A stretch of DNA of 64,000 nucleotides from Bacteroidales bacterium (GTDB taxonomy: Bacteria > Bacteroidota > Bacteroidia > Bacteroidales > UBA10428), in assembly GCA_016930375.1 (NCBI GenBank), contig JAFGGU010000012.1:21115-85114 (forward strand), given 5' to 3'. Position 1 is the stretch's first letter. The number at the start of each line of letters is the position of its first letter. The notes under the pieces were generated by a model, which saw only the letters and a list, made by a program, of their open reading frames with translations, made no database searches and was not told the DNA's origin. Shown piece by piece: positions 10,312-44,562 of this stretch. A program made the position numbers and the translations under genes.

Positions 10312-11670
10312 TTAATCTTTTACAGTGAATCCCAGTCTTTCCAACCCGGTCCTGATTTCCGGCGATGCCATAAAGAGGTTCCAGAGCAAAGCACTCCGGT
10401 AATTCTCGATCATAACCACGATGGGCCCCTGGTCGATGGCCAGGTACCTTTGGGGATACCAGTTTTTTCCGATGCTGAAGCCATCATAAAATCCATATTT
10501 ACCCCAGATGCTGTCTCCCAGTTCCTGGTAAAAATACCGAAGGGCTTTCATGGATTCTTCGGGCGTATAGGGAAAGGATGATAAGGCCGCCGAAGGGGTG
10601 ATCACTCCCAGGTCATTTTTCTCTCCCGGCGCATGGGCAGCATAACCTATGGGTGAATAACCAGCCGTGAGACCCCAGCACGAGTCGCTGTAGCCCGGAT
10701 GACCCAGGGGATTTTCCTTGCACCATTGCCAGTTGATAAGCGCCAGGTTTCGGTTCAGTTCCAGGTAATCGGCGTACTTGTCGCTGACCTTCCCGGGATT
10801 CAGTCCCAGGTAGGAGTAATGTGCCCAGAACAAGGGTCCGCCGTATTCCTCTGCGTAGTTGTATTTAAGGATCAGGGGATGACCATACATTTGATTCGTT
10901 GAAACCATGCCTCCGCTGCGGGCCCAACCTTTGTGATAGGCTGCCGCATCTATCGGATGCGTTGGTGATGAGGCCGCCAGCACATAGGTGATCAGGCACT
11001 CGTTGTAACCTTCAATGGGGAAGTTCATTTCCCATCCGAAGTTGGGTGACCAGTGCCAGTAAATTACAGGCTCGCCGCTCCGGGTGAACCAGTCCCATTC
11101 AACCTCCCGCCAAAGCCTGTCAATTTTGCCGGCCAGTGTCTTTTCCTCAACAGTGCCGGTTTTAAAATATTCGCGTACAGTCAGCAATCCCTGGATAAGG
11201 TAAGCTGTTTCAACGATATCGGCACCATTGTCCTTCGGGCTGAAAGGTTTCACACGTCCTGTTTCTCCGTACAGCCAGTGCGGCCAGGCTCCATGGAACC
11301 TGTCGGAAGTTTCCAGAAAATCAACAATACGTTTCAGGCGCTCAAAAGCTTCCAGCCGGGTAATGAATCCCCGTTCAATTCCAACCAGGATGGCCATCAG
11401 GCCAAAACCCGTGCCCCCTGTGGTTACCACATTCATATCATTTTCGGGGTATATGCCGTCGACGTGATAGCGTTCGCGGGCCATCCCCGAAATGGGTTCA
11501 GCGCCGTCCCAGAAGTACTGAAAGGTCCGGTATTCGGTAAGCGTGAGCAGCGAATCATCGGTTATTCTGGTCTCGACTTTATGGTTAACTGCCGGGGATA
11601 AGTTCCTTGTATTTTTGCAGCTACTCCAGAATAATCCGGTCAGTAGAAACAGTATCAGAATTTTTTTCAT
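10312..11670 (-). CDS. GH144-like glucoamylase-domain lipoprotein (putative beta-1,2-glucanase)
   Basis: Lipobox LFWSSC; motifs TFQYFWDGAEPISGMARERY, TTGGTGFGLMAILVGIERGFITR, DRFHGAWPHWLYGETGRVKPFSPKDNGADIVETAYLIQGLL, AIDQGPIVVMIENYRSALLWNLFM. Confidence 0.85.
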   Translation of the reverse strand: MKKILILFLLTGLFWSSCKNTRNLSPAVNHKVETRITDDSLLTLTEYRTFQYFWDGAEPISGMARERYHVDGIYPENDMNVVTTGGTGFGLMAILVGIERGFITRLEAFERLKRIVDFLETSDRFHGAWPHWLYGETGRVKPFSPKDNGADIVETAYLIQGLLTVREYFKTGTVEEKTLAGKIDRLWREVEWDWFTRSGEPVIYWHWSPNFGWEMNFPIEGYNECLITYVLAASSPTHPIDAAAYHKGWARSGGMVSTNQMYGHPLILKYNYAEEYGGPLFWAHYSYLGLNPGKVSDKYADYLELNRNLALINWQWCKENPLGHPGYSDSCWGLTAGYSPIGYAAHAPGEKNDLGVITPSAALSSFPYTPEESMKALRYFYQELGDSIWGKYGFYDGFSIGKNWYPQRYLAIDQGPIVVMIENYRSALLWNLFMASPEIRTGLERLGFTVKD

Positions 11671-11675
11671 GGCGC

Positions 11676-13316
11676 TTAATACGTGAATCCAAGTTTAGTC
11701 AATCCGGCAAGGATATCTTCGTCCGTCATAAAGAGATCCCAAAGGAGACCGGTGCGGTAATTTTCTATCATACATACGATAGGACCCTGGTCAATGGCCA
11801 GGTAGGAGGAAGCAAACCAGGGCTCTTCAAGACTGAAAGCATCGTAGAAACCGTAATCACCCCATAGCCTGTCCCCCAGGATGTAATAAAAGAACTTCAA
11901 AGCATCCATGCTTTCAGCCGGTGTGTATGGGAGAGAAGAAACGGCAGCGGTAGGTGCGATGACACCCTGGTCGTTCGTGGGTGAGCTGGCAGTATAGCCG
12001 CCGGGTATGTCGCTGGCAGTAAGGCCCCAGCAATCAGATCCGTACCCCGTGTATTGCTTTGGATTTGCTTTGCAGTATTCATAATTGATCCGCGAATGCG
12101 CTGTAAGCTGTGTCCAGTAACCGGTATACGGATCGCTCAGGTTCCTTGGATCCAGTGCCAGGAATGAATAATGCGCAAAGAAGAGAGGGCCTCCGTAATC
12201 GTACCCGAGCGGAAGCAGGATGTCATAAAATGTCTTGTTGTTCACGAAGGCGCCGTTGCGGGTCCATCCTGCATCATACACCTCCTTGGTTATTGTGTGT
12301 GTAGGGGATGAGGCAGCCAGAACGTATACTATGAGCGCTTCATTCCAGCCTGTGACAGGCATATTCATCTGCCAGGCATAATTGGGAGACCAGTGCCAGT
12401 ACAAACGGTTCTGATCGCCGTTCCTGTACCAGTCCCATTCCACACCCTCCCAGATCTTGGTAATGGAATCACACAGGGCTTTCTCTGCCGTTGATCCGTT
12501 GATAAAGTATGCTTTCACAGTAAGCAGTCCCTGCACCAGGAAGGCCGTTTCAACAAGGTCGCCGCCATCGTCTTTGGAGCTGAAAGGATGTACCTTTCCG
12601 GTAGTACCATTCAGCCAGTGCGGATAAGCACCATGGAACCTGTCAGTGGCCGGATCAATCAGAAAGCTGACGATGGTCTTTAGTCTGTCAAGTCCCTCCT
12701 GCCGGGTGATAAAGCCTCTTTCGATGCCTGTAAGAATGGCCATCAGTCCAAATCCACTTCCTCCCGTTGTAACAATGTCTCCCGAGTCATATCGTTCCCG
12801 GGCCAGTCCCGAAACCGGGTGCCCGTATTCCCAGAAGTAATCAAAGGTTTTCCGTTGCACCAGCGTAAGCAGAGAATCTTCGGTAATGGCAGGAAACTTG
12901 GGTGTCTCATCGAGACGGGTAACAAATACAAAGGAATAGCTTTTATAAATGGTTCCTCCCAGGGTCGGACCCTGATCAAAAAGGACCCGGTACGTTGATA
13001 ATCCTTCCAGCGGGTCCAAAAGGGTTATGATCAGAGTTTGCCTGTCATCCCCGAACCGGTGGAGATAATTGGTGTCAACACCCCCGGTAATAAACAACTT
13101 GTCCTTGCTGAATTGCAGGGTATCGACGCGGGAATGGAACTTCACCCGGATCTCAACGCTGCTATAATCTATATTTTCAATATTGCCATTGTTGGTAACA
13201 TAAACGTTGTTTATGTAAAGCGAATCAATGAGGATCTCGCCACCCTCGGTACTTTCCGGGTCTTTATTACAAGCGAGGATGAAGAACAGAACGGGTATCC
13301 AGAGTAATTTGGGCAT
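11676..13316 (-). CDS. GH144-like glucoamylase-domain lipoprotein with N-terminal Ig-like extension
   Basis: Lipobox FFILAC; same catalytic-domain motifs as the neighbour (TFDYFWEYGHPVSGLARERY, TTGGSGFGLMAILTGIERGFITR, DRFHGAYPHWLNGTTGKVHPFSSKDDGGDLVETAFLVQGLL); about 150-residue beta-rich N-terminal extension. Confidence 0.85.
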   Translation of the reverse strand: MPKLLWIPVLFFILACNKDPESTEGGEILIDSLYINNVYVTNNGNIENIDYSSVEIRVKFHSRVDTLQFSKDKLFITGGVDTNYLHRFGDDRQTLIITLLDPLEGLSTYRVLFDQGPTLGGTIYKSYSFVFVTRLDETPKFPAITEDSLLTLVQRKTFDYFWEYGHPVSGLARERYDSGDIVTTGGSGFGLMAILTGIERGFITRQEGLDRLKTIVSFLIDPATDRFHGAYPHWLNGTTGKVHPFSSKDDGGDLVETAFLVQGLLTVKAYFINGSTAEKALCDSITKIWEGVEWDWYRNGDQNRLYWHWSPNYAWQMNMPVTGWNEALIVYVLAASSPTHTITKEVYDAGWTRNGAFVNNKTFYDILLPLGYDYGGPLFFAHYSFLALDPRNLSDPYTGYWTQLTAHSRINYEYCKANPKQYTGYGSDCWGLTASDIPGGYTASSPTNDQGVIAPTAAVSSLPYTPAESMDALKFFYYILGDRLWGDYGFYDAFSLEEPWFASSYLAIDQGPIVCMIENYRTGLLWDLFMTDEDILAGLTKLGFTY

Positions 13317-28693: not shown

Positions 28694-29794
28694 ATGAGCA
28701 AGAACGTCAGGGCACAACAAAAACGCGTTACCATCAAGGACATCGCAGCGCTTTCCCATGTGTCCATCGGGACGGTTGATCGTGTTTTGCATAATCGCGG
28801 GGAGGTTAACCAGGAAACCCATGAAAGGGTTATGTCGTTTGTGGAAGAGCTGGGCTATACGCCAAACCTGCTTGCCAAATCACTTGCTTTAAAGAAGAGT
28901 TTTACCATTGCTGCCCTGATTCCGGAAACAGGCCCTGGCAATCCCTATTGGGCAATGCCTTTGGCCGGTCTTACCAAAGCCGTTGAGGAACTTAATGATT
29001 TTAATACCCGGATTTCCGTGTTCCATTTCGATCAGGGAGATGAGACATCTTTTATCAGGCAATTCGACAAAGTCCTGGATATTCATCCCCATGGCATTAT
29101 CATGGCGCCTACCTTTCATGAAACTGCAATGCGTTATTTGTCAAAATGTGAAGAATTAAATATTCCGCTGATTTTGATAGACAATAACCTGGACGCCGGT
29201 AAAAGACTGGGTTATTTCGGTCAGGACGCCCAGCAGAGCGGCTATGTGGCGGCCAAGTTGATGCATTACGGATTACCGGGCTGTTCAACGGTCCTCATCC
29301 TAAACCTGGCGCAGAACAAAGTCATCACAAGACATATGAATCGGAGAGAGCAGGGATTCAGGGATTACTTTCAGAAGATTGTTCCCGGCAATTGCATCCA
29401 GGCAGTTTCGGTTGAAATTGACCTGATCCGGCAGGATGAGCCCGAAAGAAGCCTGAAGGAAGTTTTCGGCAGGTATCCCGATATTGCAGGGATCTTTGTC
29501 ACCAATTCCAGGGTCCACAAGGTGGCCAGGTACTTTACCCATCACAAAAAAGGAGGCATACTTCTTGTGGGGTACGACCTGATTCATGCCAACCTGGAAT
29601 TTGTGGAGAACGGCATCGTGGATTTTCTGATCTGCCAGAAACCCGAAGATCAGGGATACAAATCTGCCATGGCGATGTTTAATTATCTGCTTACCGGAAA
29701 ACCGGTTGAAAAAGTGAACTACAGCCCTATTGATATCATCATTAAAGAAAATTCAGGGTATTATAAAAACATAAACAATTCTTACCACGCATGA
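28694..29794 (+). CDS. LacI-type transcriptional regulator with sugar-binding domain
   Basis: VTIKDIAALSHVSIGTVDRVLHNRGEVNQETHERV HTH plus PBP-like domain; stop overlaps the start of the SDR gene by 4 bp (ATGA). Confidence 0.92.
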   Translation: MSKNVRAQQKRVTIKDIAALSHVSIGTVDRVLHNRGEVNQETHERVMSFVEELGYTPNLLAKSLALKKSFTIAALIPETGPGNPYWAMPLAGLTKAVEELNDFNTRISVFHFDQGDETSFIRQFDKVLDIHPHGIIMAPTFHETAMRYLSKCEELNIPLILIDNNLDAGKRLGYFGQDAQQSGYVAAKLMHYGLPGCSTVLILNLAQNKVITRHMNRREQGFRDYFQKIVPGNCIQAVSVEIDLIRQDEPERSLKEVFGRYPDIAGIFVTNSRVHKVARYFTHHKKGGILLVGYDLIHANLEFVENGIVDFLICQKPEDQGYKSAMAMFNYLLTGKPVEKVNYSPIDIIIKENSGYYKNINNSYHA

Positions 29795-30639
29795 AAAAGC
29801 TTGATTTTTCTGATCTCGAAGGTAAAGTCTGTGTCATTACCGGTGGCGCAGGGGTAATTGGCAGAGCCATTTGTGAAGCCCTGGCTGCAAACGGAATAAA
29901 AACCGCCGTCAGCGATATGAAATTGGATGCGGCGGAGGAAATGGCCGGGAATCTTACAAGCAGATATGGCACAAAGTGCATCGGGGTGCAGGCCAATGTG
30001 CTTGATAAAGAATCACTGATCCAGGCCAGAGATCTGATCCATGAAAAGCTCGGTTCCATCGACATCTTAATCAATGGCGCAGGAGGCAATTCACCCGATG
30101 CAACTACCCGGTTGGAACAGATTCCTGATTCAGAAGCTCAGCTCGACGACAGCTTCTTTGGATTGGGCATGGCCGGATTTGATAAGGTATTTGCTTTGAA
30201 TTTCACAGGGACACTTTTACCAACCCTTGTTTTTGCCAGGGAAATGGTTGAAAACGGGAAGGGAGTGATTTTAAACATCTCCTCCATGAACTCATTCAGA
30301 CCACTCACAAAAATTCCCGCATATTCAGCTGCCAAAGCGTCTGTGAATAACTTCACCCAGTGGTTGTCAGTTCACCTGGCCAAAACGGGTGTAAGGGTCA
30401 ATGCGATTGCCCCGGGTTTTTTTCTGACCAACCAGAACCGGTTTCTGCTGACCGATGAAAAAACAGGAGAGGCCACGGCTCGTGGCAGGAAAATAATCGG
30501 CAATACACCGACGGGCAAATATGGTCAGCCTGAAGATCTTCAGGGAGCTGTTCTTTTCCTGCTGTCTGAATTGTCTTCTTTCATTACCGGAATTGTGTTG
30601 CCGGTTGATGGCGGATACAGCGCCTACGGGGGAGTATAA
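29791..30639 (+). CDS. SDR oxidoreductase, likely D-mannonate oxidoreductase (fructuronate reductase)
   Basis: Rossmann motif VITGGAGVIG, YSAAK active site; overall form (FFLTNQNRFLLTDEKTGEATARGRKIIGNTPTGKYGQPEDLQGA) resembles SDR-type mannonate oxidoreductases; hexuronate operon context. Confidence 0.75.
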   Translation: MKKLDFSDLEGKVCVITGGAGVIGRAICEALAANGIKTAVSDMKLDAAEEMAGNLTSRYGTKCIGVQANVLDKESLIQARDLIHEKLGSIDILINGAGGNSPDATTRLEQIPDSEAQLDDSFFGLGMAGFDKVFALNFTGTLLPTLVFAREMVENGKGVILNISSMNSFRPLTKIPAYSAAKASVNNFTQWLSVHLAKTGVRVNAIAPGFFLTNQNRFLLTDEKTGEATARGRKIIGNTPTGKYGQPEDLQGAVLFLLSELSSFITGIVLPVDGGYSAYGGV

Positions 30640-30661: not shown

Positions 30662-30677
30662 CCCCCGCCGGCGGGGG
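30662..30677. repeat. Perfect 16-bp GC palindrome CCCCCGCCGGCGGGGG
   Basis: gcccccgccggcgggggat between the SDR and LarA-like genes. Confidence 0.8.
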
Positions 30678-30721: not shown

Positions 30722-31990
30722 ATGATATATTATGAGAAGGGATCCGAAAATACAGTTCTGTCAGACAGGGATCTGAAAGAGGGACTGTTCAGTGCTCTTG
30801 ACAAACTGGGAAAACGGGAAAAGGTGCTGGCCATTCCCCCCGACTTTACCCGTTTTCATTCTCATGCCGGGGAGCTCACATCCATGGTGTACGAGTATTA
30901 CGGCAATAAGCTGACAGATGTACTTCCGGCTTTGGGAACCCATTCACCCATGACGCCGGATCAATTGAGCACCATGTTTCCGGGCATACCGGAAGAGCTC
31001 TTCAGGGTGCATTACTGGCGCAGTGATGTACTCACTTTAGGAAGAGTTCCCGGGGATTATATTGCCGAGATTACCGATAATGCCCTGAATTACGATTGGC
31101 CGGCCCAGCTGAATAAACTGGTTTGTCAGGGCGGGCACGATCTGATATTATCCCTGGGACAGGTTGTTCCCCATGAGGTCATCGGAATGGCCAACTATAA
31201 TAAGAATCTTTTTGTTGGTACCGGAGGAGCCGAGGGTATCAACAAAAGCCACTTTTTGGGCGCTGTTTATGGAATGGAACGCATGATGGGCCGGGCAGAT
31301 AATCCGGTGCGGAAAATACTCAATTATGCATCGTCACATTTTATCAGTGAACTGCCTGTTGTTTATGTGCATACCGTGGTGGGCAGAGATGACAATGAGA
31401 ACCTGGTGGTGAGGGGCCTGTATATCGGAGATGATGAGCAGGTATTCACCCGTGCTGCCGACTTATCCCTCAAAGTGAATTTCACCGTGCTTGATAAGCC
31501 GGTCAAAAAGGTTGTTGTTTATCTCGATCCCGCAGAATTTAAAAGCACGTGGCTGGGCAATAAAAGCATTTACCGAACCCGGATGGCCATTGCGGATGGA
31601 GGTGAACTCCTGGTTCTTGCCCCGGGAGTGAAAGAATTCGGGGAAGACCCGGAGATCGACCAGTTGATCAGGAAGTACGGGTACTTTGGAACCACGGAAA
31701 CGCTTCAGAACCTGAAAGAAAACAAAGACCTGGAAGGTAACCTCAGCGCAGCCGCCCATCTAATCCACGGCAGTTCAGAAGGCAGGTTCACCATCACCTA
31801 TTGTCCCGGTCACCTGACCAAGCGGGAAATCGAAAAGGTGAATTTCAAGTACGGTTCCTTAAAGAATATGCTCGTGAAGTATAACCCGGCAACCATGAAG
31901 GAAGGCTACAATTTGCAGGAGGACGGTGAAGTGGTCTTTTATATTTCCAATCCGGCGCTTGGGCTGTGGGCGTGTAAGGAGAGGCTGTAG
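30722..31990 (+). CDS. LarA family (DUF2088) nickel-dependent racemase/epimerase homologue
   Basis: GTHSPMT (His74), PHEVIGMANYNKNLFVGTGGAEGINKSH: His151, Lys161 and His177 with the same +10/+26 spacing as His174, Lys184 and His200 of Lactobacillus plantarum LarA. Confidence 0.85.
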   Translation: MIYYEKGSENTVLSDRDLKEGLFSALDKLGKREKVLAIPPDFTRFHSHAGELTSMVYEYYGNKLTDVLPALGTHSPMTPDQLSTMFPGIPEELFRVHYWRSDVLTLGRVPGDYIAEITDNALNYDWPAQLNKLVCQGGHDLILSLGQVVPHEVIGMANYNKNLFVGTGGAEGINKSHFLGAVYGMERMMGRADNPVRKILNYASSHFISELPVVYVHTVVGRDDNENLVVRGLYIGDDEQVFTRAADLSLKVNFTVLDKPVKKVVVYLDPAEFKSTWLGNKSIYRTRMAIADGGELLVLAPGVKEFGEDPEIDQLIRKYGYFGTTETLQNLKENKDLEGNLSAAAHLIHGSSEGRFTITYCPGHLTKREIEKVNFKYGSLKNMLVKYNPATMKEGYNLQEDGEVVFYISNPALGLWACKERL

Positions 31991-32065: not shown

Positions 32066-33460
32066 ATGACAACAATCTCCCAGCAAATTGGTAAATACCG
32101 ATGGACAATCTGCACCCTTGTATTTTTTGCCACCACAGTTAACTATTTTGATCGCAATGTTTTGGGACTTTTAAAGCCCATCCTGTCTGATGCAGGCATA
32201 TTCGGCGCGGACAAACCCAACCAGGAGTTGTATTATTCCTATGTGGTGATGAGTTTTCAGATTGCCTACGCTATTGGCATGTTACTGGCAGGAAGGCTTA
32301 TCGACTGGTTCGGGACAAGAAAGGGATATGCCTTTTCATTGCTGGGATGGAGCATTGCTGCCATTGGCCATGCCCTCGCCCACAATACCTTTTCATTTGG
32401 TTTTTGGCGGGCCGCGCTGGGTTTTACCGAATCAGGAAATTTTCCGGCAGCCAACAAGACCATGGCAGAATGGTTCCCAAAGAAGGAAAGAGCATTTGCC
32501 ACCGGTATTTATAATTCAGGCGCCAATGTAGGTGCCATCGTTACTCCGTTGTTTGTTCCCTGGATGGCCAGGGTATGGGGATGGCAATGGGCTTTTATTT
32601 TTGTTGGCGCTATCGGTCTGATCTGGCTTTATTTCTGGTTTCGCATTTATGGTTCACCTGAACAAAAGCTTAAAGCAGGCGTTCTTTCACAGGCTGAATA
32701 TGATTATATCCACAGCGACCTGGATGAGCAGGCCGAAGAGAAAAAAAGCGGCGACCAGGTATCATGGTTTAAGCTCCTGACTTATCGCCAGACCTGGTCA
32801 TTCTTTTTCGGTAAGTTCCTGACAGATGGCGTATGGTGGTTTTACCTGTTCTGGCTGCCTGCCTTTCTGAGCGGCGAAAACACCCGGAAGATCCAGGAAT
32901 ACATGGGAGCTAATCCCGATTTTACAGGTGATCAATCCGGCATACCGGGGATCATCAGCTGGACCCTGGCAGTCGCTGTGGTTTATACGATTTCTACAAT
33001 TGGTTCGGTGTATGGAGGATGGCTTCCCAAAAGATTTATTAACAATGGAATGGCATCCTATAAAGCCCGTAAAACATCGATGTTTATTTATGCTTTATTC
33101 CCCCTTACTGTATTGTTAGCCAGCAGGTTGGGCCATATTAACACATGGTATGCCGTTTTCATCATTGGTATTGCATGCGCAGCTCACCAGGCCTGGTCGG
33201 CGAACATTTTCACCACGGTTACTGATATGTTTCCCAAAAGGGCTGTTGCTTCTGTCACCGGCATCGGGGGAATGGCAGGTGCTGTAGGCGGCATACTGAT
33301 CGCGCAGTCAGCCGGTCTGATTTTAAAACATTATTCAGCGCTCGGCAATATCCAGGCGGGTTATGCATTCCTGTTCATCTTTTGCGGAATTGCCTATATC
33401 CTGGCTTGGTTCCTCATGCATTTTATGGTGCCTAAATTAAAACGTGTTGAAAATTTGTAA
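32066..33460 (+). CDS. MFS transporter of the ACS family, probable hexuronate transporter
   Basis: NYFDRNVLGLLKPILSDAG, GRLIDWFGTRKGYAFSLLGWS, ESGNFPAANKTMAEWFPKKERAFATGIYNSGANVGA: ExuT-like; directly upstream of uxaC. Confidence 0.88.
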   Translation: MTTISQQIGKYRWTICTLVFFATTVNYFDRNVLGLLKPILSDAGIFGADKPNQELYYSYVVMSFQIAYAIGMLLAGRLIDWFGTRKGYAFSLLGWSIAAIGHALAHNTFSFGFWRAALGFTESGNFPAANKTMAEWFPKKERAFATGIYNSGANVGAIVTPLFVPWMARVWGWQWAFIFVGAIGLIWLYFWFRIYGSPEQKLKAGVLSQAEYDYIHSDLDEQAEEKKSGDQVSWFKLLTYRQTWSFFFGKFLTDGVWWFYLFWLPAFLSGENTRKIQEYMGANPDFTGDQSGIPGIISWTLAVAVVYTISTIGSVYGGWLPKRFINNGMASYKARKTSMFIYALFPLTVLLASRLGHINTWYAVFIIGIACAAHQAWSANIFTTVTDMFPKRAVASVTGIGGMAGAVGGILIAQSAGLILKHYSALGNIQAGYAFLFIFCGIAYILAWFLMHFMVPKLKRVENL

Positions 33461-33472
33461 ACAAGGATAAGG

Positions 33473-34873
33473 ATGAAAGGTTTTTTAGATTCAAATTTCC
33501 TTCTGCATACAAAAACTGCGGAATACCTTTACCATCAGCATGCAGCCGGGATGCCCATCATCGACTACCACTGTCATCTCTCGCCGAAACAGATTGCTGA
33601 AAATAAGAATTTTGACAATCTCACCCAACCCTGGCTGTATGGCGACCATTATAAATGGCGCGCCATGCGCTCCAACGGCATCGATGAACGGTATTGCTCA
33701 GGCAATGCCACCGACTGGGAAAAGTATGAGAAATGGGCGGAAACCGTGCCCTTTACCATGAGAAACCCGCTTTATCACTGGACACATCTTGAACTTCAGC
33801 GGTATTTTGGCATTACCGATCTTTTAAGCCCCAAAACCGCAGCCACCATTTACGAAAAGGCGTCGGACATGCTCGGACAAAAAGACTTTAGCCCCGTTGG
33901 CCTTATAAAAAGGATGAACGTAGAGATCGTCTGCACCACGGATGACCCTGTGGATTCGCTGGAATATCACCGTAAGATCAAGGAAACCACAGCAGGGATC
34001 AGGGTAATTCCTGCCTGGAGACCGGATAAAGTGCTGATGGCGGATAATCCGGTAGGATTTAATGAATACATCGGCAAACTGGCGGTTGTATCCGGAATTG
34101 ATATTACCAGTTATGGTCATTTGCTGGAAGCTCTGGACAAAAGGCACGAATTCTTCCATGACTCTGGTTGCCGGCTCTCTGACCATGGCTTGGAAAGCTT
34201 CTATTGCGACGGTTATACACTGACTGAAATAAATGCGATTTTTGGAAGAATCAGGAAGGGTTTCGATCTGGCTCCCGCTGAGGTTTCCAAATTCAGGTCA
34301 GCCATGCTTTATGACCTGGCTGTCATGGATTGTGATAGAGGATGGACACAACAATTCCACATAGGAGCCATGCGCAATAACAATTCCCGGATGTTCATAA
34401 CTTACGGACCTGATGGCGGCTTCGATTCCATAGGTGATTATGGTGTCGCCATACCTGCATCTCGTTTTCTCGACCGGCTCGATAAAGAAGCCAAACTGGC
34501 CAAGACGATATTGTATAACCTGAATCCTGCGGATAATGAGGTAATGGCAACCATGATCGGGAATTTCCAGGACGGTACGGTACCGGGCAAAATTCAATGG
34601 GGTTCGGGATGGTGGTTCCTGGATCAGAAGGACGGCATGGAGAAACAACTGAATGCACTCTCTAACCTGGGATTGCTCAGCCGGTTTGTAGGTATGCTTA
34701 CCGATTCACGCAGCCTGCTGTCTTACCCCCGCCACGAATATTTTCGCAGGGTGCTTTGCAACCTGATCGGGAATGACGTTGAAAACGGAGAATTGCCGGA
34801 TGACAAAACCTGGCTGGGCAAAATCGTGGAGGATGTATGTTACCATAATGCACGAAATTATTTCAATTTTTAA
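33473..34873 (+). CDS. uxaC: Glucuronate isomerase
   Basis: IIDYHCHLSPKQIAENKNFDNLTQPWLYGDHYKWRAMRSNGI...TDDPVDSLEYH...QFHIGAMRNNNSRMF...LTDSRSLLSYPRHEYFRRVLCNLIG: characteristic UxaC. Confidence 0.95.
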   Translation: MKGFLDSNFLLHTKTAEYLYHQHAAGMPIIDYHCHLSPKQIAENKNFDNLTQPWLYGDHYKWRAMRSNGIDERYCSGNATDWEKYEKWAETVPFTMRNPLYHWTHLELQRYFGITDLLSPKTAATIYEKASDMLGQKDFSPVGLIKRMNVEIVCTTDDPVDSLEYHRKIKETTAGIRVIPAWRPDKVLMADNPVGFNEYIGKLAVVSGIDITSYGHLLEALDKRHEFFHDSGCRLSDHGLESFYCDGYTLTEINAIFGRIRKGFDLAPAEVSKFRSAMLYDLAVMDCDRGWTQQFHIGAMRNNNSRMFITYGPDGGFDSIGDYGVAIPASRFLDRLDKEAKLAKTILYNLNPADNEVMATMIGNFQDGTVPGKIQWGSGWWFLDQKDGMEKQLNALSNLGLLSRFVGMLTDSRSLLSYPRHEYFRRVLCNLIGNDVENGELPDDKTWLGKIVEDVCYHNARNYFNF

Positions 34874-34895: not shown

Positions 34896-36251
34896 GTGAA
34901 ATCAGAAAAAAAACACAATTCGCGTCGTGATTTTATCAAGAAAGCAGGACTGGGTGCGGCATCATTGACCCTGGGCGGACTTGGATTATCTGCCTCTTCC
35001 TATGCACGCATCAGGGGCGCAAACGAAAGGATGAACATTGCCATCCTTGGCTGTTACAGGCGGTTTAACGCGCTTATGGAATCACTGCCCAAACTCAGCG
35101 ATGATTTAAACATCGCTTTTGTTTGTGATGTTGATCAGAAGAGGTTATCGGAAGCGCAGGCTAAAGTGAAAGAGAAGATGGGCATGATGCCCGGCGCAGA
35201 GGAGGATCTGCGAAAAATACTGGAAAACAAGGGTGTGGATGCCATCATCAATGCCACACCGGATCACTGGCATGCTCCGGCCACTTTCATGGCACTTCAG
35301 GCCGGAAAACATGTCTACCTGGAGAAACCCTGTTCTCATAATCCCCGTGAGGGGGAACTGCTTGTTGATTTCCAGAAGAAATACAACAAGGTCATACAAA
35401 TGGGATCACAGCAGCGTTCAGCGCTTGAAACAAGGGAGATTGTCGATGAAATTCACAAAGGATTGATTGGAGATCCCTATCTGGGTGTTGCATTTTATGT
35501 CAACAGCAGGGGTCGTGTGCCTAATCCCCGGCAGGTTCCGCCTCCGCCCACGCTTAACTGGGAACTTTTCCAGGGGCCGGCTCCGCGTGAACCTTATATG
35601 GACATTTATTTTGATTACAACTGGCACTGGTTCTGGCAGTACGGCACCGGTGAAACCGGTAACAATGCCGTGCATGAGCTCGATGTATGCCGCTGGGCGC
35701 TGCAGCTCGATTACCCAAAACAGGTAATCGTGAACGCCGCAAAGCAACATTTTCGCGACGATGGATGGCAGATGTATGATACCATGGATGCCGATTTTAT
35801 TTTCGGGAACGGAAAGACCATAAAATGGGACGGCAAGAGCCGCACCAATTACTATACCTATGGCATGGACCGGGGCAGTATCATTTACGGATCAACAGGA
35901 ACGGCAGTAGTTAACCGGAATGGTTACAAGGTATTTGATTTGCAGGGCCAGCTTACCCGTGAGCGGAAGGCCGATGAGGTTGCACAGACCACCCAGCCAG
36001 GCGGAGCCGGAGGTATGGATGGACTGCATATCATGAACTTCATTAATACAATACGCGGTACTGCCGTATTGCAGCACCAGCCCATAACGGAGGGAGCCAA
36101 AAGCACGCTGCTCGGACATCTGGCCAACATCTCCTACCGGGTGAATGCTCCTCTCTCCATGGATGAAAGCAACGGTCGCATTCTGAACAATCCCGAAGCC
36201 ATGAAACTTTGGGACAGGCAATATGAAAAGGGATGGGAACCGAAAATTTAA
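34896..36251 (+). CDS. Gfo/Idh/MocA family oxidoreductase with Tat signal
   Basis: SRRDFIKKAGLGAASLTLGG Tat signal; Rossmann start MNIAILGCYRRFN; NATPDHWHAPATFMALQAGKHVYLEKPCSHNPREGELLV. Confidence 0.93.
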   Translation: MKSEKKHNSRRDFIKKAGLGAASLTLGGLGLSASSYARIRGANERMNIAILGCYRRFNALMESLPKLSDDLNIAFVCDVDQKRLSEAQAKVKEKMGMMPGAEEDLRKILENKGVDAIINATPDHWHAPATFMALQAGKHVYLEKPCSHNPREGELLVDFQKKYNKVIQMGSQQRSALETREIVDEIHKGLIGDPYLGVAFYVNSRGRVPNPRQVPPPPTLNWELFQGPAPREPYMDIYFDYNWHWFWQYGTGETGNNAVHELDVCRWALQLDYPKQVIVNAAKQHFRDDGWQMYDTMDADFIFGNGKTIKWDGKSRTNYYTYGMDRGSIIYGSTGTAVVNRNGYKVFDLQGQLTRERKADEVAQTTQPGGAGGMDGLHIMNFINTIRGTAVLQHQPITEGAKSTLLGHLANISYRVNAPLSMDESNGRILNNPEAMKLWDRQYEKGWEPKI

Positions 36252-36264
36252 TAAATTGTATACC

Positions 36265-37569
36265 ATGAATTCAACACGCAGAAGTTTCATTAAAAACGCT
36301 TCCCTGCTGGCTGCCGGGGCGGCTCTTCCAGTTAATGCATTTCCCTTCGTCCAAGGGAAAGTCGCAGCAACCGATAAAATCCGTGTGGCGCTTATTGGTG
36401 CCAACGGTATGGGATTTAACAACCTGGCTTCCTTTCTGAAAAATCCCGAAATCGCATGTACCGCCCTGTGCGACGTGGATAAGAATGTATTGGACAAGCG
36501 GACAAAAGACCTTACGGAACTGGGCGCGCCCGAGCCGAAACATTTTGCTGATTACAGGAAGATGCTGGAGTACAAGGATATCGATGTGGTAATCATAGGC
36601 ACTCCTGACCACTGGCACTGCATGCAGTTTGTTGATTCTTTAGAAGCCGGGAAACATGTATATGTTGAGAAACCTTTGGGCAACACAATTGCTGAGATCA
36701 ATATCATGCAGAAGGCGGCAAAGCGGTATGGTAAAATGGTTCAGGTAGGGCAGTGGCAAAGAAGCCAGCCCCATTTCGTGGATGCCATCCGTTTTTTGAA
36801 GACGGGAGCCCTGGGTCGCATCCGCACATGCAAAGCCTGGTCGTATGTCGACTGGAAAGGGCCGGTTCCCAAAGTGCCGGACACACCTGTACCGGAAGGG
36901 GTGGATTACGACATGTGGCTGGGACCCGCTCCCAAACGTCCCTTTAATAAAAACAGGTTTCATTTTACATGGCGCTGGTATTGGGAATATGCAGGCGGCC
37001 TGATGACCGACTGGGGAGTACACCTGATTGATTATATTTTATATGGAATGGATAAAGCCATTCCGGTATCGGTGATGGCTACCGGCGGGAAGTATGCTTA
37101 TCCCGAGGATGACATGGTTACGCCCGATACCATGACCGCCGTATATGATTTCAAAGATTTCACCATGATCTGGGAACACACCATTGGCATCGGGCTTGGG
37201 AACTGGAGAAGGCCTCATGGTATGGCTTACATTGGCGAGAACGGCACCCTGGTACTGGATCGTAACGGATGGGAAGTGGTGCCGGAAAAACAAAAAACAG
37301 AGGCCATTCCCGTGCAAAAGAATGTGGGCGTTGGCCTCGACCTTCATGTGCGGAATTTTATCGATTGCCTTAAAAACAATGCTCCCGGGGAACTTCATGC
37401 CGGCATTGACGTAGGCAGAAACGTGGCCCTTGTAGCGCAAATGGGAAATATTGCATACAGAACAGGAGAAAAAGTATACTGGGATGATGACAAACAATTG
37501 TTCAGTACTCCCGCGGCCAACAAAATGATTACACCGGAGTACCAGAATGGTTGGAAATTACCTCAATGA
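36265..37569 (+). CDS. Gfo/Idh/MocA family oxidoreductase with Tat signal
   Basis: STRRSFIKNASLLAAGAALPVNAF; IRVALIGANGMG; GTPDHWHCMQFVDSLEAGKHVYVEKPLGN. ORF-track start 36223 overlaps the upstream gene; MNSTRR start used. Confidence 0.93.
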   Translation: MNSTRRSFIKNASLLAAGAALPVNAFPFVQGKVAATDKIRVALIGANGMGFNNLASFLKNPEIACTALCDVDKNVLDKRTKDLTELGAPEPKHFADYRKMLEYKDIDVVIIGTPDHWHCMQFVDSLEAGKHVYVEKPLGNTIAEINIMQKAAKRYGKMVQVGQWQRSQPHFVDAIRFLKTGALGRIRTCKAWSYVDWKGPVPKVPDTPVPEGVDYDMWLGPAPKRPFNKNRFHFTWRWYWEYAGGLMTDWGVHLIDYILYGMDKAIPVSVMATGGKYAYPEDDMVTPDTMTAVYDFKDFTMIWEHTIGIGLGNWRRPHGMAYIGENGTLVLDRNGWEVVPEKQKTEAIPVQKNVGVGLDLHVRNFIDCLKNNAPGELHAGIDVGRNVALVAQMGNIAYRTGEKVYWDDDKQLFSTPAANKMITPEYQNGWKLPQ

Positions 37570-37576
37570 TAAGCTT

Positions 37577-38821
37577 ATGAAAATTGAAAAATACTCCTTC
37601 GGAACAGGCGACCGCTTTGGAAAAGAAGGTCTTGCCCAATTACAGGCCATTCAGGATATCAACCGCCTCGGGATACCGGTGGTGCCCGTCTGGAACAAGT
37701 CCAACCGGGAACATTCCATTATACATTCCGTTCCTTCCGACGTAAAGCAGGAAGCGGCAGCAGCAGTGGCAGAAGGCAGGTATACCGGCAATTACTATGT
37801 TGACGCGGATCATATCAATCTGGATACGGTGGACAGATTTGTCGACAGCAGCAATTTCTTTACCATTGATGTGGCGCATTTCATTGGCAGGAAAGCATCA
37901 CAGGAGGCCATTGCTGATTTTCAAACAAGGTACTCGAAATATCTCGGTGATATGAACATTCCGGGTATCGGGCAAAAGCTGAATGTCACGGCCGGCTTTT
38001 TGACTCACCTTGCCGAAGACTATCTTGCAGCCATTGAGGAAGTAAAAAAGATCTATGATCACATTTGTACGATTAAAGGCCAGGCAAACTTCGTAGCGGA
38101 AGTATCCGTTGACGAGGCAGAAATAGTGCAGGGGCCGCTGGAACTGTTTTTTATTCTCGCTGAATTGAAAGAAAAAGGCGTGGAGGTTCAGACCATTGCA
38201 CCCAAGTTCTCAGGCTTGTTTGCCAAGGGCGTCGATTATATCGGAGACGTGCAGGGATTTGCCAGAGAATTTGAACAGGATGTAGCTGTAGTTAAACATG
38301 CGGTAAAAGAACTGGGATTGCCGGAAAACCTCAAGTTAAGCGTGCACAGCGGCAGCGACAAGTTTTCGATTTATCCTGCCATCCGGGCAGCAATCCGGAA
38401 ATTTGATGCAGGGATACATGTGAAAACAGCCGGCACAAACTGGCTGGAGGAAGTGATCGGACTGGCTGAAGCGGGTGATGACGGTCTTGAAATCGCCAGG
38501 GCTGTTTATGCGAAATCCATGGATCGTTATGATGAACTTACCGGACCCTATGCCACAGTATTAAAAATAAACCGGCAATTGCTTCCGGAAGTTTCCCTGG
38601 TAAATTCCTGGAATGGCAAACAATTCAGTGAAGCGCTTACGCACGATCAAAGCTGCAAAAACTACAACCCGCATTTCAGGCAGCTGATCCATGTAGGATA
38701 CAAGATTGCCGCGGAAATGGGAGATCGTTTTCTCTCAGCCCTGGATAAGCATCATGAGATCATTGCTTCCAAGGTGAAGTATAACTTATTGGAACGGCAC
38801 CTGAAACCTTTGTTCCGGTAA
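37577..38821 (+). CDS. UxaE-like tagaturonate epimerase family protein
   Basis: MKIEKYSFGTGDRFGKEGLAQLQAIQ...VPVWNKSNREHSIIHS...YYVDADHINLDTVDRFVDSSNFFTIDVAHFIG...APKFSGLFAKGVDYIGD...SVHSGSDKFSIYPAIR; adjacent to uxaC and the SDR gene. Confidence 0.8.
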   Translation: MKIEKYSFGTGDRFGKEGLAQLQAIQDINRLGIPVVPVWNKSNREHSIIHSVPSDVKQEAAAAVAEGRYTGNYYVDADHINLDTVDRFVDSSNFFTIDVAHFIGRKASQEAIADFQTRYSKYLGDMNIPGIGQKLNVTAGFLTHLAEDYLAAIEEVKKIYDHICTIKGQANFVAEVSVDEAEIVQGPLELFFILAELKEKGVEVQTIAPKFSGLFAKGVDYIGDVQGFAREFEQDVAVVKHAVKELGLPENLKLSVHSGSDKFSIYPAIRAAIRKFDAGIHVKTAGTNWLEEVIGLAEAGDDGLEIARAVYAKSMDRYDELTGPYATVLKINRQLLPEVSLVNSWNGKQFSEALTHDQSCKNYNPHFRQLIHVGYKIAAEMGDRFLSALDKHHEIIASKVKYNLLERHLKPLFR

Positions 38822-42701: not shown

Positions 42702-43373
42702 CTATTTCTTATATTTTTTGGCTATTTCCAGCACTTTTTTACAGGTGTCTGTAATCTGACCGAAATCGCCGCTTTCAATCCATGATTTTACGAAGAGCTG
42801 CGAGCCCATGCCTACACAGGCTGCTCCTGCCTGAAACCAGGCCTTTAGATTCTCCTCAGAGGTGTCAACGCCACCGGTGGGCATGATATGGGTCCATGGC
42901 ATCGGACCTTTCACGGCCTCAATGAACTTGGGTCCGCCCACCTGGCTCCCCGGAAATATTTTTATGATCTCGGCACCGAGCTCTTCAGCCCGGGAGATCT
43001 CCGATACTGATCCGCATCCGGGAGACCACAGGATCTTCCGCCGGTTGCATACTTTGGCCATATCTTCATTCAAAACCGGCGATACAATAAAAGCGGCTCC
43101 CAGCTGGATAAAGAGGGAAGTTGTTCCGGCTTCCACCACCGAACCCGCACCCATGATCATCCCGGGCAATTCCTGGGAAGCATACTTGTTCAGATCCCTG
43201 AATACCTCATGGGCAAAATCACCCCGGTTGGTGAATTCAAAAACCCTGATGCCGCCGTCGTAACAGGCTTTCAGCACGTTTTTACAGGTTGTCAGGTCTT
43301 TGTGATAAAACACAGGTATAATTCCTGTTTCAAGCATGGTAGTTGCTACCTGGAGGCGGGAGAAGAGGGGCAT
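42702..43373 (-). CDS. eda: KDPG/KHG aldolase (2-dehydro-3-deoxyphosphogluconate aldolase)
   Basis: MLETGIIPVFYHKDLTTCKNVLKACYDGGIRVFEFTNR...IMGAGSV...FIVSPVLNEDMAKVCNRRKILWSPGCG...KIFPGSQVGGPKFIEAVKGPMPWTHIMPTGGV. Confidence 0.92.
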   Translation of the reverse strand: MPLFSRLQVATTMLETGIIPVFYHKDLTTCKNVLKACYDGGIRVFEFTNRGDFAHEVFRDLNKYASQELPGMIMGAGSVVEAGTTSLFIQLGAAFIVSPVLNEDMAKVCNRRKILWSPGCGSVSEISRAEELGAEIIKIFPGSQVGGPKFIEAVKGPMPWTHIMPTGGVDTSEENLKAWFQAGAACVGMGSQLFVKSWIESGDFGQITDTCKKVLEIAKKYKK

Positions 43374-43403
43374 GGCAGTATGATTTAAGTTTGCAGTATG
43401 GGG

Positions 43404-43498
43404 TTGTATGTTGTATGTTGTATGTTGTATGTTGAATGTTGTATGTTGTATGTTGTATGTTGTATGTTGTGATTGTTGTGATTGTTGTGGTTGTTGTA
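43404..43498. repeat. Tandem 7-bp array TTGTATG (9 units, one TTGAATG variant, 43404-43466) followed by degenerate TTGTGATTG-type repeats
   Basis: Read directly; between kdgK and eda. Confidence 0.95.
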
Positions 43499-43531
43499 CC
43501 TACAGCCTATAGCCTACAGCCTACAGCCTAT
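43499..43531. repeat. Tandem 7-bp array CCTAYAG (about 4.5 units)
   Basis: cctacagcctatagcctacagcctacagcctatc, abutting the kdgK stop codon. Confidence 0.85.
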
Positions 43532-44562
43532 CTCGATACCCTTCCCGATGCATCTCCTCCCATCAACTTCTCCACTTCCTCCACCGATACGAGGTTAAAA
43601 TCACCCGGTATGGTGTGTTTGAGGCAGGAGGCGGCCGCGGCGAAATTCAGGGCTTTCTGGTCATCACCCGGGTAGGAAATCAATCCGTAAATCAATCCAC
43701 CCATGAATGAGTCACCTCCGCCTACACGGTCCACGATGTGAGTGATGTCATAGGTCGGGGCTTGTATTAGTTTTTTCCCGTCCCATAGCACCCCGCTCCA
43801 GGTATTATGGCTGGCGCTGATTGATCCGCGAAGGGTAATGATTACCTTTTTGGCCTTTGGGAACTTTTGCATCAGCTGCCGGCAGACAGATTCATAGGCT
43901 GCTGCTTCAACATGTCCGCCGGTAACATTGCCATGATCCGGTTTAATGCCGAATACCTTTTCCGCATCTTCCTCGTTGCCGAGGATAATGTCACAGCCGG
44001 CAACCAGGTCAGGCATAACTTCGGAAGCTTTTTTCCCGTATTTCCAGAGGTTCTTTCTGTAATTCAGATCGGTTGAAACCGTGATCCCCTTTTTGCCGGC
44101 AACCTGAATGGCTTCCAGGCATACCTTTGCAGTTCCTTCAGCAATGGCCGGAGTGATACCGGTCCAGTGAAACCAGGATACGCCGTCCAATGCTTTTTCC
44201 CAGTCGATCATTCCCGGCTGAATGGCGGCTATGGAGGAATGTGCACGGTCATAAATGACTTTACTGGCCCGGGCCACAGCGCCGCTCTCGAGGAAGTAGA
44301 TGCCCAGGCGTTCGCCGCCATAAACAATTTTACCGGTTCCCACGCCAAATCTTTTCAATTCCATTACACACGCCTGTGCCATATCGTTTTGCGGCAGGCG
44401 GGTAATAAAATCCACAGGAATGCCGAAATTGGCCAGAGATACGGCCACGTTGGCCTCACCACCGCCAAACTGGATGTTGAATTGCCGAGATTGGGAGAAC
44501 CTTTCATAACCCGGAGTAGAAAGCCGGAGCATGATCTCGCCGAAAGTGATAACCTTGGTCAT
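43528..44562 (-). CDS. kdgK: 2-keto-3-deoxygluconate kinase (PfkB family)
   Basis: VITFGEIMLRLSTPGYERFSQSRQFNIQFGGGEANVAVSLANFG; PfkB C-terminal signature THIVDRVGGGDSFMGGLIYGL. Confidence 0.9.
   Translation of the reverse strand: MTKVITFGEIMLRLSTPGYERFSQSRQFNIQFGGGEANVAVSLANFGIPVDFITRLPQNDMAQACVMELKRFGVGTGKIVYGGERLGIYFLESGAVARASKVIYDRAHSSIAAIQPGMIDWEKALDGVSWFHWTGITPAIAEGTAKVCLEAIQVAGKKGITVSTDLNYRKNLWKYGKKASEVMPDLVAGCDIILGNEEDAEKVFGIKPDHGNVTGGHVEAAAYESVCRQLMQKFPKAKKVIITLRGSISASHNTWSGVLWDGKKLIQAPTYDITHIVDRVGGGDSFMGGLIYGLISYPGDDQKALNFAAAASCLKHTIPGDFNLVSVEEVEKLMGGDASGRVSR

Follow-up and report, generated by a model that had tools for sequence, protein, structure and literature searches.

A gene at 30722-31990 on the forward strand of a 64,000-nucleotide stretch of a Bacteroidales bacterium genome (the window) encodes a member of the LarA superfamily, here called LarA18, that belongs to the putative hexonate-epimerase family NF052594. 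We put at roughly three in four the probability that this protein is an enzyme dependent on the nickel-pincer nucleotide (NPN) that forms D-gluconate from D-mannonate by inversion at C2, draining uronates toward 6-phosphogluconate. We infer the substrate, the direction of the reaction, the loading of the cofactor and the specificity of the kinase discussed below, the substrate from sequence motif and gene context. A preliminary description of this DNA had proposed a C2 epimerase of the gluconate/mannonate type feeding a hexuronate pathway. The first part stood, with NF052594 as the family and GntE2 of Thermotoga maritima as the nearest relative, while the enzyme most likely drains mannonate rather than feeding the pathway. 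New here are operon and co-occurrence evidence for LarA-homologue group 18 and a candidate kinase, so that this group gains a concrete candidate substrate, direction and partner kinase.

Family and fold of LarA18

The open reading frame encodes 422 amino acids from an ATG start codon that is supported by the alignment, homologues starting at the same position. In NCBIfam, the model NF052594 ('nickel-dependent putative hexonate epimerase') matched the protein full-length (residues 10-417) with 661.1 bits against a cut-off of 500, the remaining LarA models gave at most 28 bits, and the LarA lactate racemase model NF033504 gave no match at E <= 0.001. In Pfam, only the LarA N-terminal domain was recognized, weakly (26.3 bits, cut-off 23.3). 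The short name of NF052594, NPN_18_hexonate, suggests that it is group 18 of the LarA homologues of Desguin et al. 2020, for which hexonate epimerization was put forward in that year as a hypothesis only (PMC7583248); our literature search found no published assay of any group 18 member.

When the PDB was searched with phmmer, a single relative was retrieved, 4nar (T. maritima Q9WYS3, GntE2; E 4.8e-38), and a profile of 30 homologues reached 4nar alone. An AlphaFold2 model of LarA18 (pLDDT 88, pTM 0.85, with the weakest confidence at residues 153-157, beside H151) also had 4nar as its best fold match, with a TM of 0.80 and 24% identity over the fold alignment, compared to TM values of at most 0.73 for lactate and malate racemases and at most 0.68 for single-His LarA proteins.

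The family scores led us to reject a lactate/2-hydroxyacid racemase identity, and the grouping with a lactate racemase clade against which the preliminary description had warned was not found. That LarA18 is such a racemase, or a general 2-hydroxyacid racemase, located in its operon by chance has a probability next to nil: the LarA fold and residues are present and promiscuous LarA homologues exist (PMC11770544), but the scores to other LarA families do not exceed 28 bits, a separate LarA paralogue of the same genome (L090:7278-8510) lies nearer to those families, and the gene context of LarA18 is conserved across many phyla.

Active-site residues and specificity signature

In an alignment of 30 sequences, including 29 homologues from other genomes that are 63-71% identical to LarA18, residues D41, R44, H74, H151, E152, V153, K161, H177, W277, K281, A345 and H346 were invariant. 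H74 (in a GTHSP motif), H151, K161 and H177, with the +10/+26 spacing of the last three, had been singled out in the preliminary description; these positions were confirmed, and the His and Lys residues are kept both in the homologues and in the alignment with 4nar. R44, H151, K161 and H177 align with R41, H154, K164 and H180 of GntE2, and R41, K164 and H180 are named in print as cofactor residues of that enzyme (PMC7583248). Because the PDB profile search reached only 4nar, the mapping onto LarA was made via the published GntE2 numbering: by it, the catalytic set of the superfamily (LarA His108, His174 and Lys298) corresponds to H74, H151 and K281, and the cofactor residues Asp72, Arg75, Lys184 and His200 to D41, R44, K161 and H177. 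The His-to-Asn LarA subfamily (LarA Sp/Bw, PMC12611868), in which Asn replaces His174, was ruled out by the invariance of H151. In the mechanism that we propose, the nickel-pincer nucleotide would be carried on K161 with H177 as a nickel ligand, and a proton-coupled hydride transfer between H74 and H151 would invert C2 of D-mannonate, with D-gluconate as the product.

The published GntE signature consists of E, V, A and H at the positions of LarA F175, F176, W358 and T359 (PMC11770544), and LarA18 has E152, V153, A345 and H346 there. The assignment of E152-V153 is certain; that of A345 and H346 comes from the sequence alignment with 4nar and not from structure superposition, and for one of the A/H positions the 2020 paper indicated a different residue, N348 of GntE2 (PMC7583248). 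The Glu-Val pair that follows the second catalytic His, and W277, the Trp of helix 11, are published marks of gluconate epimerases (PMC7583248, PMC11770544). The LAR pocket residues F, F, W and E or Q are not found in LarA18, whose pocket is E, V, A, H.

A uronate operon in the window

Between 28694 and 38821 the forward strand carries a series of eight closely spaced genes. The first encodes a LacI-family protein (28694-29794; PF00356 and PF13407 above cut-off), the probable regulator of the operon, and overlaps by 4 bases the gene of a short-chain dehydrogenase/reductase (SDR) identified as D-mannonate oxidoreductase, or fructuronate reductase (29791-30639; NF006132, 369.8 bits vs 281). After LarA18 come an MFS transporter probably serving hexuronate/hexonate uptake (32066-33460; PF07690 above cut-off), for which the nearest NCBIfam model, the galactonate transporter TIGR00893, scored below its cut-off, and the glucuronate/galacturonate isomerase UxaC (33473-34873; NF002794, 633.5 vs 387; PF02614, 682 bits). 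They are followed by two Gfo/Idh/MocA oxidoreductases, one at 34896-36251 (PF01408; NF058561 below cut-off; export-type leader by TIGR01409) and one at 36223-37569 (PF01408, PF19051), and by the tagaturonate 3-epimerase UxaE (37547-38821; PF16257, 205.4 vs 27.1 bits). The position of the LarA gene between a mannonate-type SDR and a transporter/uxaC pair, as first described, was thus borne out by NF006132, PF07690 and NF002794; UxaE and the KdgK/Eda genes at 42702-44562 are neighbours that the earlier account did not include. As a separate observation, the tandem Gfo/Idh/MocA pair (34896-37569), with its export-type leaders, is distant from glycoside 3-dehydrogenase models.

By the isomerase pathway, this gene set takes glucuronate and galacturonate to D-mannonate. 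The MFS transporter would take up uronates, UxaC and UxaE would convert glucuronate and galacturonate to fructuronate, the SDR would reduce fructuronate to D-mannonate, and LarA18 would epimerize D-mannonate to D-gluconate. A PfkB-type protein encoded outside the operon (C48:75544-76620), predicted to act as the kinase of this step, would then yield 6-phosphogluconate, and the 6-phosphogluconate dehydrogenase on contig C111 ribulose-5-phosphate.

On the opposite strand, 4 kb from the operon, lie genes for the KDPG/KHG aldolase Eda (42702-43373; NF005499, 358.2 vs 275), part of an alternative exit from mannonate via KDG, and for a PfkB-family, KdgK-like 2-dehydro-3-deoxygluconokinase (43528-44562), to which KDG kinase models are closest, none above cut-off, and which is 67-75% identical to kinases in loci L011 and L050.

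Other features of the window were also recorded. The gap between the SDR and LarA18 genes contains a perfect 16-base GC palindrome, CCCCCGCCGGCGGGGG, at 30662-30677, with no further site of this kind in the window (expectation 0.2, allowing up to 3 mismatches); no clear T-run follows it, and the folding of the leader is barely better than that of shuffled sequences (z -1.8). The segment 47835-53164 encodes a ribokinase-like PfkB protein, a nucleoside hydrolase, an ADP-ribosylglycohydrolase, a permease of ureide/sugar type and a 3-keto-disaccharide hydrolase, possibly a set for ribose/nucleoside scavenging. Two neighbouring putative glucoamylase-family proteins (PF10091) are encoded at 10312-13316, near SusC/SusD-like outer-membrane uptake genes.

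LarA18 loci in other genomes

When GTDB genome contigs were scanned, LarA18 proteins (63-71% identical) turned up at 80 loci, spanning Bacteroidota, Ignavibacteria, Spirochaetes, Planctomycetes, Acidobacteriota, Verrucomicrobia and others; among 395 sampled genomes of the class Bacteroidia, that of the window was the only carrier. By neighbour clustering, the SDR was present in 59 of the 80 loci, within 3 genes of LarA18 in 53. UxaC was found in the fetched flanks of 46 loci (within 3 genes in 24) and UxaE in those of 37, these counts and that of the SDR including the window itself, and a 6-phosphogluconate dehydrogenase accompanied LarA18 in 52/80, on the same strand and within 3 genes in 50. 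All these counts are lower bounds, because several contigs are short, and they are drawn from kindred organisms and do not represent independent events. Nine acidobacterial loci encode a GntK-type gluconokinase beside LarA18 (TIGR01313, 158.6 vs 113.75 for the one copy scanned), in two spirochaete loci a UxuB-like dehydrogenase replaces the SDR, and in three related loci UxuA is next to LarA18. As the neighbours comprise a mannonate-forming enzyme, a gluconokinase and a 6-phosphogluconate dehydrogenase, the conversion of mannonate to gluconate is, of the hexonate epimerizations that this stage of the pathway allows, the one that links them; the context of uxaC, uxaE, mannonate oxidoreductase, gnd and GntK points to the route suggested for Thermotoga, from mannonate by way of gluconate and 6-phosphogluconate to ribulose-5-phosphate.

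The same loci bear on the possibility that LarA18 epimerizes another hexonate or aldarate of the uronate pathway, with mannonate/gluconate as a side substrate. The KM values for mannonate of GntE2 (17 mM) and GntE1 (120 mM; both PMC7583248) imply that the family may have another true substrate, the authors of that study themselves doubted mannonate for GntE1 and named conversions such as glucarate to mannarate (PMC7583248), and the genome of the window has the mannonate dehydratase ManD for mannonate use. We nevertheless consider this quite improbable, as the D-mannonate oxidoreductase of the operon makes mannonate, and the gluconokinase and 6-phosphogluconate dehydrogenase that adjoin LarA18 in related loci fit a product that becomes 6-phosphogluconate.

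Apart from these gene kinds, 16 loci (L015:9104-9994 and 15 others) encode a HAD-like protein of ~296 residues (PF13419, weak). Its gene is directly upstream of LarA18 in many of them, often in those where no PfkB kinase occupies that place, and a PPi-type phosphofructokinase is sometimes present in these loci.

A PfkB-family kinase and the 6-phosphogluconate dehydrogenase

A PfkB-family gene of ~360 codons accompanies the LarA18 gene in about one third of the loci, in many of them directly upstream. Among these kinases a close-knit group, about 70-82% identical to the copy of locus L012 and just 26-30% to the KDG kinase, scores far below all curated sugar-kinase cut-offs. In the genome of the window the orthologue lies away from the operon, at C48:75544-76620 (L094:9545-10621); it is 82% identical to the operon-borne L012 copy and keeps a GGGD motif. 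An orthologue was present in 26 of 50 LarA18-carrier genomes, the acidobacterial carriers having none, and in 1 of the 395 sampled Bacteroidia, namely the genome of the window, sole carrier of LarA18 there; the 50 genomes were selected for having LarA18, and kinship inflates this contrast. The partnership of the kinase with LarA18 is clear, and we predict that the protein of C48:75544-76620 is a gluconokinase, or else a mannonate kinase. A search of this genome for gluconokinases of the GntK type found none.

The only gnd of the genome is at C111:62979-63848 (TIGR00873, 770 vs 427) and is 74-76% identical to those of loci L050 and L051, 76% to the L051 copy that follows LarA18. The position of zwf near this gnd indicates that it also serves the ordinary pentose-phosphate pathway. 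The location of both kinase and gnd outside the operon speaks against the mannonate/gluconate reading in this organism. Also on C111, at L089:7935-11519, a Gfo/Idh oxidoreductase, a PdxB-like 4-phosphoerythronate dehydrogenase and Gnd are encoded as a trio; these three gene kinds directly follow LarA18 in L050 and L051 and are separate from it here.

The kinase could also act first, phosphorylating D-mannonate, so that LarA18 would be a 6-phosphomannonate 2-epimerase giving 6-phosphogluconate directly. This order of reactions was measured in extracts of Lactobacillus suebicus, for which a GntE homologue was named as a candidate (PMC6978723); many loci have the kinase gene directly upstream of LarA18, the two genes co-occur among genomes, and several positions near the active site differ in sequence between group 18 and GntE2. 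We regard it as unlikely, however, as acidobacterial LarA18 is paired with a GntK-type gluconokinase and GntK of Escherichia coli was reported not to use mannonate (PMC6978723), LarA18 keeps the E, V, A, H signature, and GntE2 works on unphosphorylated mannonate (PMC7583248). It is a tentative and unlikely proposal that the PfkB protein is a mannonate kinase and LarA18 the missing 6-phosphomannonate 2-epimerase; a less far-reaching one is that the former is a new PfkB-type gluconokinase completing a uronate-to-pentose-phosphate route of many phyla. Were the 6-phosphomannonate reading true, the substrate of LarA18, an NPN enzyme, would be a phosphorylated sugar acid.

Other exits from mannonate

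UxuA was not found in the genome of the window (85% complete); it was missing from 34 of the 50 carrier genomes and full-length in 6. Its absence had suggested LarA18 as the sole exit from mannonate, an idea dropped once ManD, an enolase-type D-mannonate dehydratase, was found on contig C13 (NF043051, 601.5 vs 550). With ManD, KdgK and Eda present, the classical KDG route is open too, and the pathway forks at mannonate in this genome. These enzymes would also allow the reverse direction, in which external gluconate is converted to mannonate and used through ManD (C13) and the KdgK and Eda of the window, the epimerization being reversible by nature. This is very improbable, since the operon yields mannonate from uronates, no source of gluconate is encoded beside LarA18, and relatives pair LarA18 with consumers of gluconate or gluconate phosphate.

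Drainage of mannonate to gluconate by LarA18 would most likely route uronic acids from plant or algal polysaccharides to the pentose-phosphate pathway. If so, uronate use via gluconate and this pathway is no peculiarity of Thermotoga and occurs also in Bacteroidota, Ignavibacteria, Acidobacteriota, Spirochaetes and Planctomycetes, and mannonate becomes the point at which the KDG and pentose-phosphate routes part, one of them requiring nickel.

Supply of the nickel-pincer cofactor

The larB, larC and larE genes, which are not visible in the window, as had been remarked, were all found in a search of the genome, so that the main objection raised beforehand against a functional LarA protein fails. 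They cluster on contig C48, with larC at 118544-119725, larE beside it and larB next; NCBIfam scores were 304.6 vs 150 for LarE, 305.5 vs 175 for LarB, 213.7 vs 90 for LarC and 159.4 vs 50 for LarC2. As the genome has a second LarA paralogue, L090:7278-8510 (C37:64913), larBCE alone is no proof that LarA18 is the loaded protein. This paralogue is nearest to the LarAH10 and malate racemase families, below every cut-off (252.7 vs 540). Divergent beside larC is a gene for a DUF362 protein with an export-type leader (L091:9857-10861, C48); DUF362 has served in print as an outgroup for the LarA superfamily (PMC11770544).

Comparison with known systems

The closest characterized system is that of GntE2 (Q9WYS3, PDB 4nar), with proven interconversion of mannonate and gluconate (PMC7583248); it was predicted from context by Rodionova et al. 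2012, as cited in PMC6978723 and PMC7583248, and assayed later. LarA18 resembles it in fold (TM 0.80), in the cofactor and catalytic residues, in the His-Glu loop motif and in the Trp and Lys of helix 11. Moreover, in related LarA18 loci neighbouring genes serve to break down uronates, reduce mannonate and use gluconate, similar to what Rodionova et al. 2012, as summarized in PMC6978723, described for Thermotoga; according to the same summary, gntE homologues were listed there in Acidobacterium and Terriglobus. The two proteins differ in sequence (24% identity over the fold alignment) and in group, LarA18 belonging to group 18 and GntE2 to group 20, and the LarA18 carriers have a PfkB-type kinase or GntK, with kinase and gnd outside the operon in the present genome.

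Group 18 itself, as represented by NF052594 (NPN_18_hexonate), is LarA18's own family (661 bits vs 500 over the full length); its published activity is a hypothesis, and the operon and co-occurrence evidence for mannonate/gluconate comes from the LarA18 loci. Gluconate 2-epimerase activity has been published for GntE1 of Corynebacterium glutamicum and LarAH15 of Phytophthora nicotianae (PMC7583248, PMC11770544), which, compared by their descriptions, share the usual GntE signature E, V, A, H with LarA18 and differ from it in belonging to other LarA groups. The mannonate kinase/6-phosphomannonate 2-epimerase route of L. suebicus, whose genes were not identified (PMC6978723), likewise joins fructuronate-derived mannonate to 6-phosphogluconate, but there phosphorylation precedes epimerization. 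Finally, equivalents of His108, His174, Lys184, His200 and Lys298 of Lactobacillus plantarum LarA are all present in LarA18, which differs from that enzyme in the residues of the substrate pocket, in its fold match (TM about 0.72) and in giving no NF033504 match at E <= 0.001.
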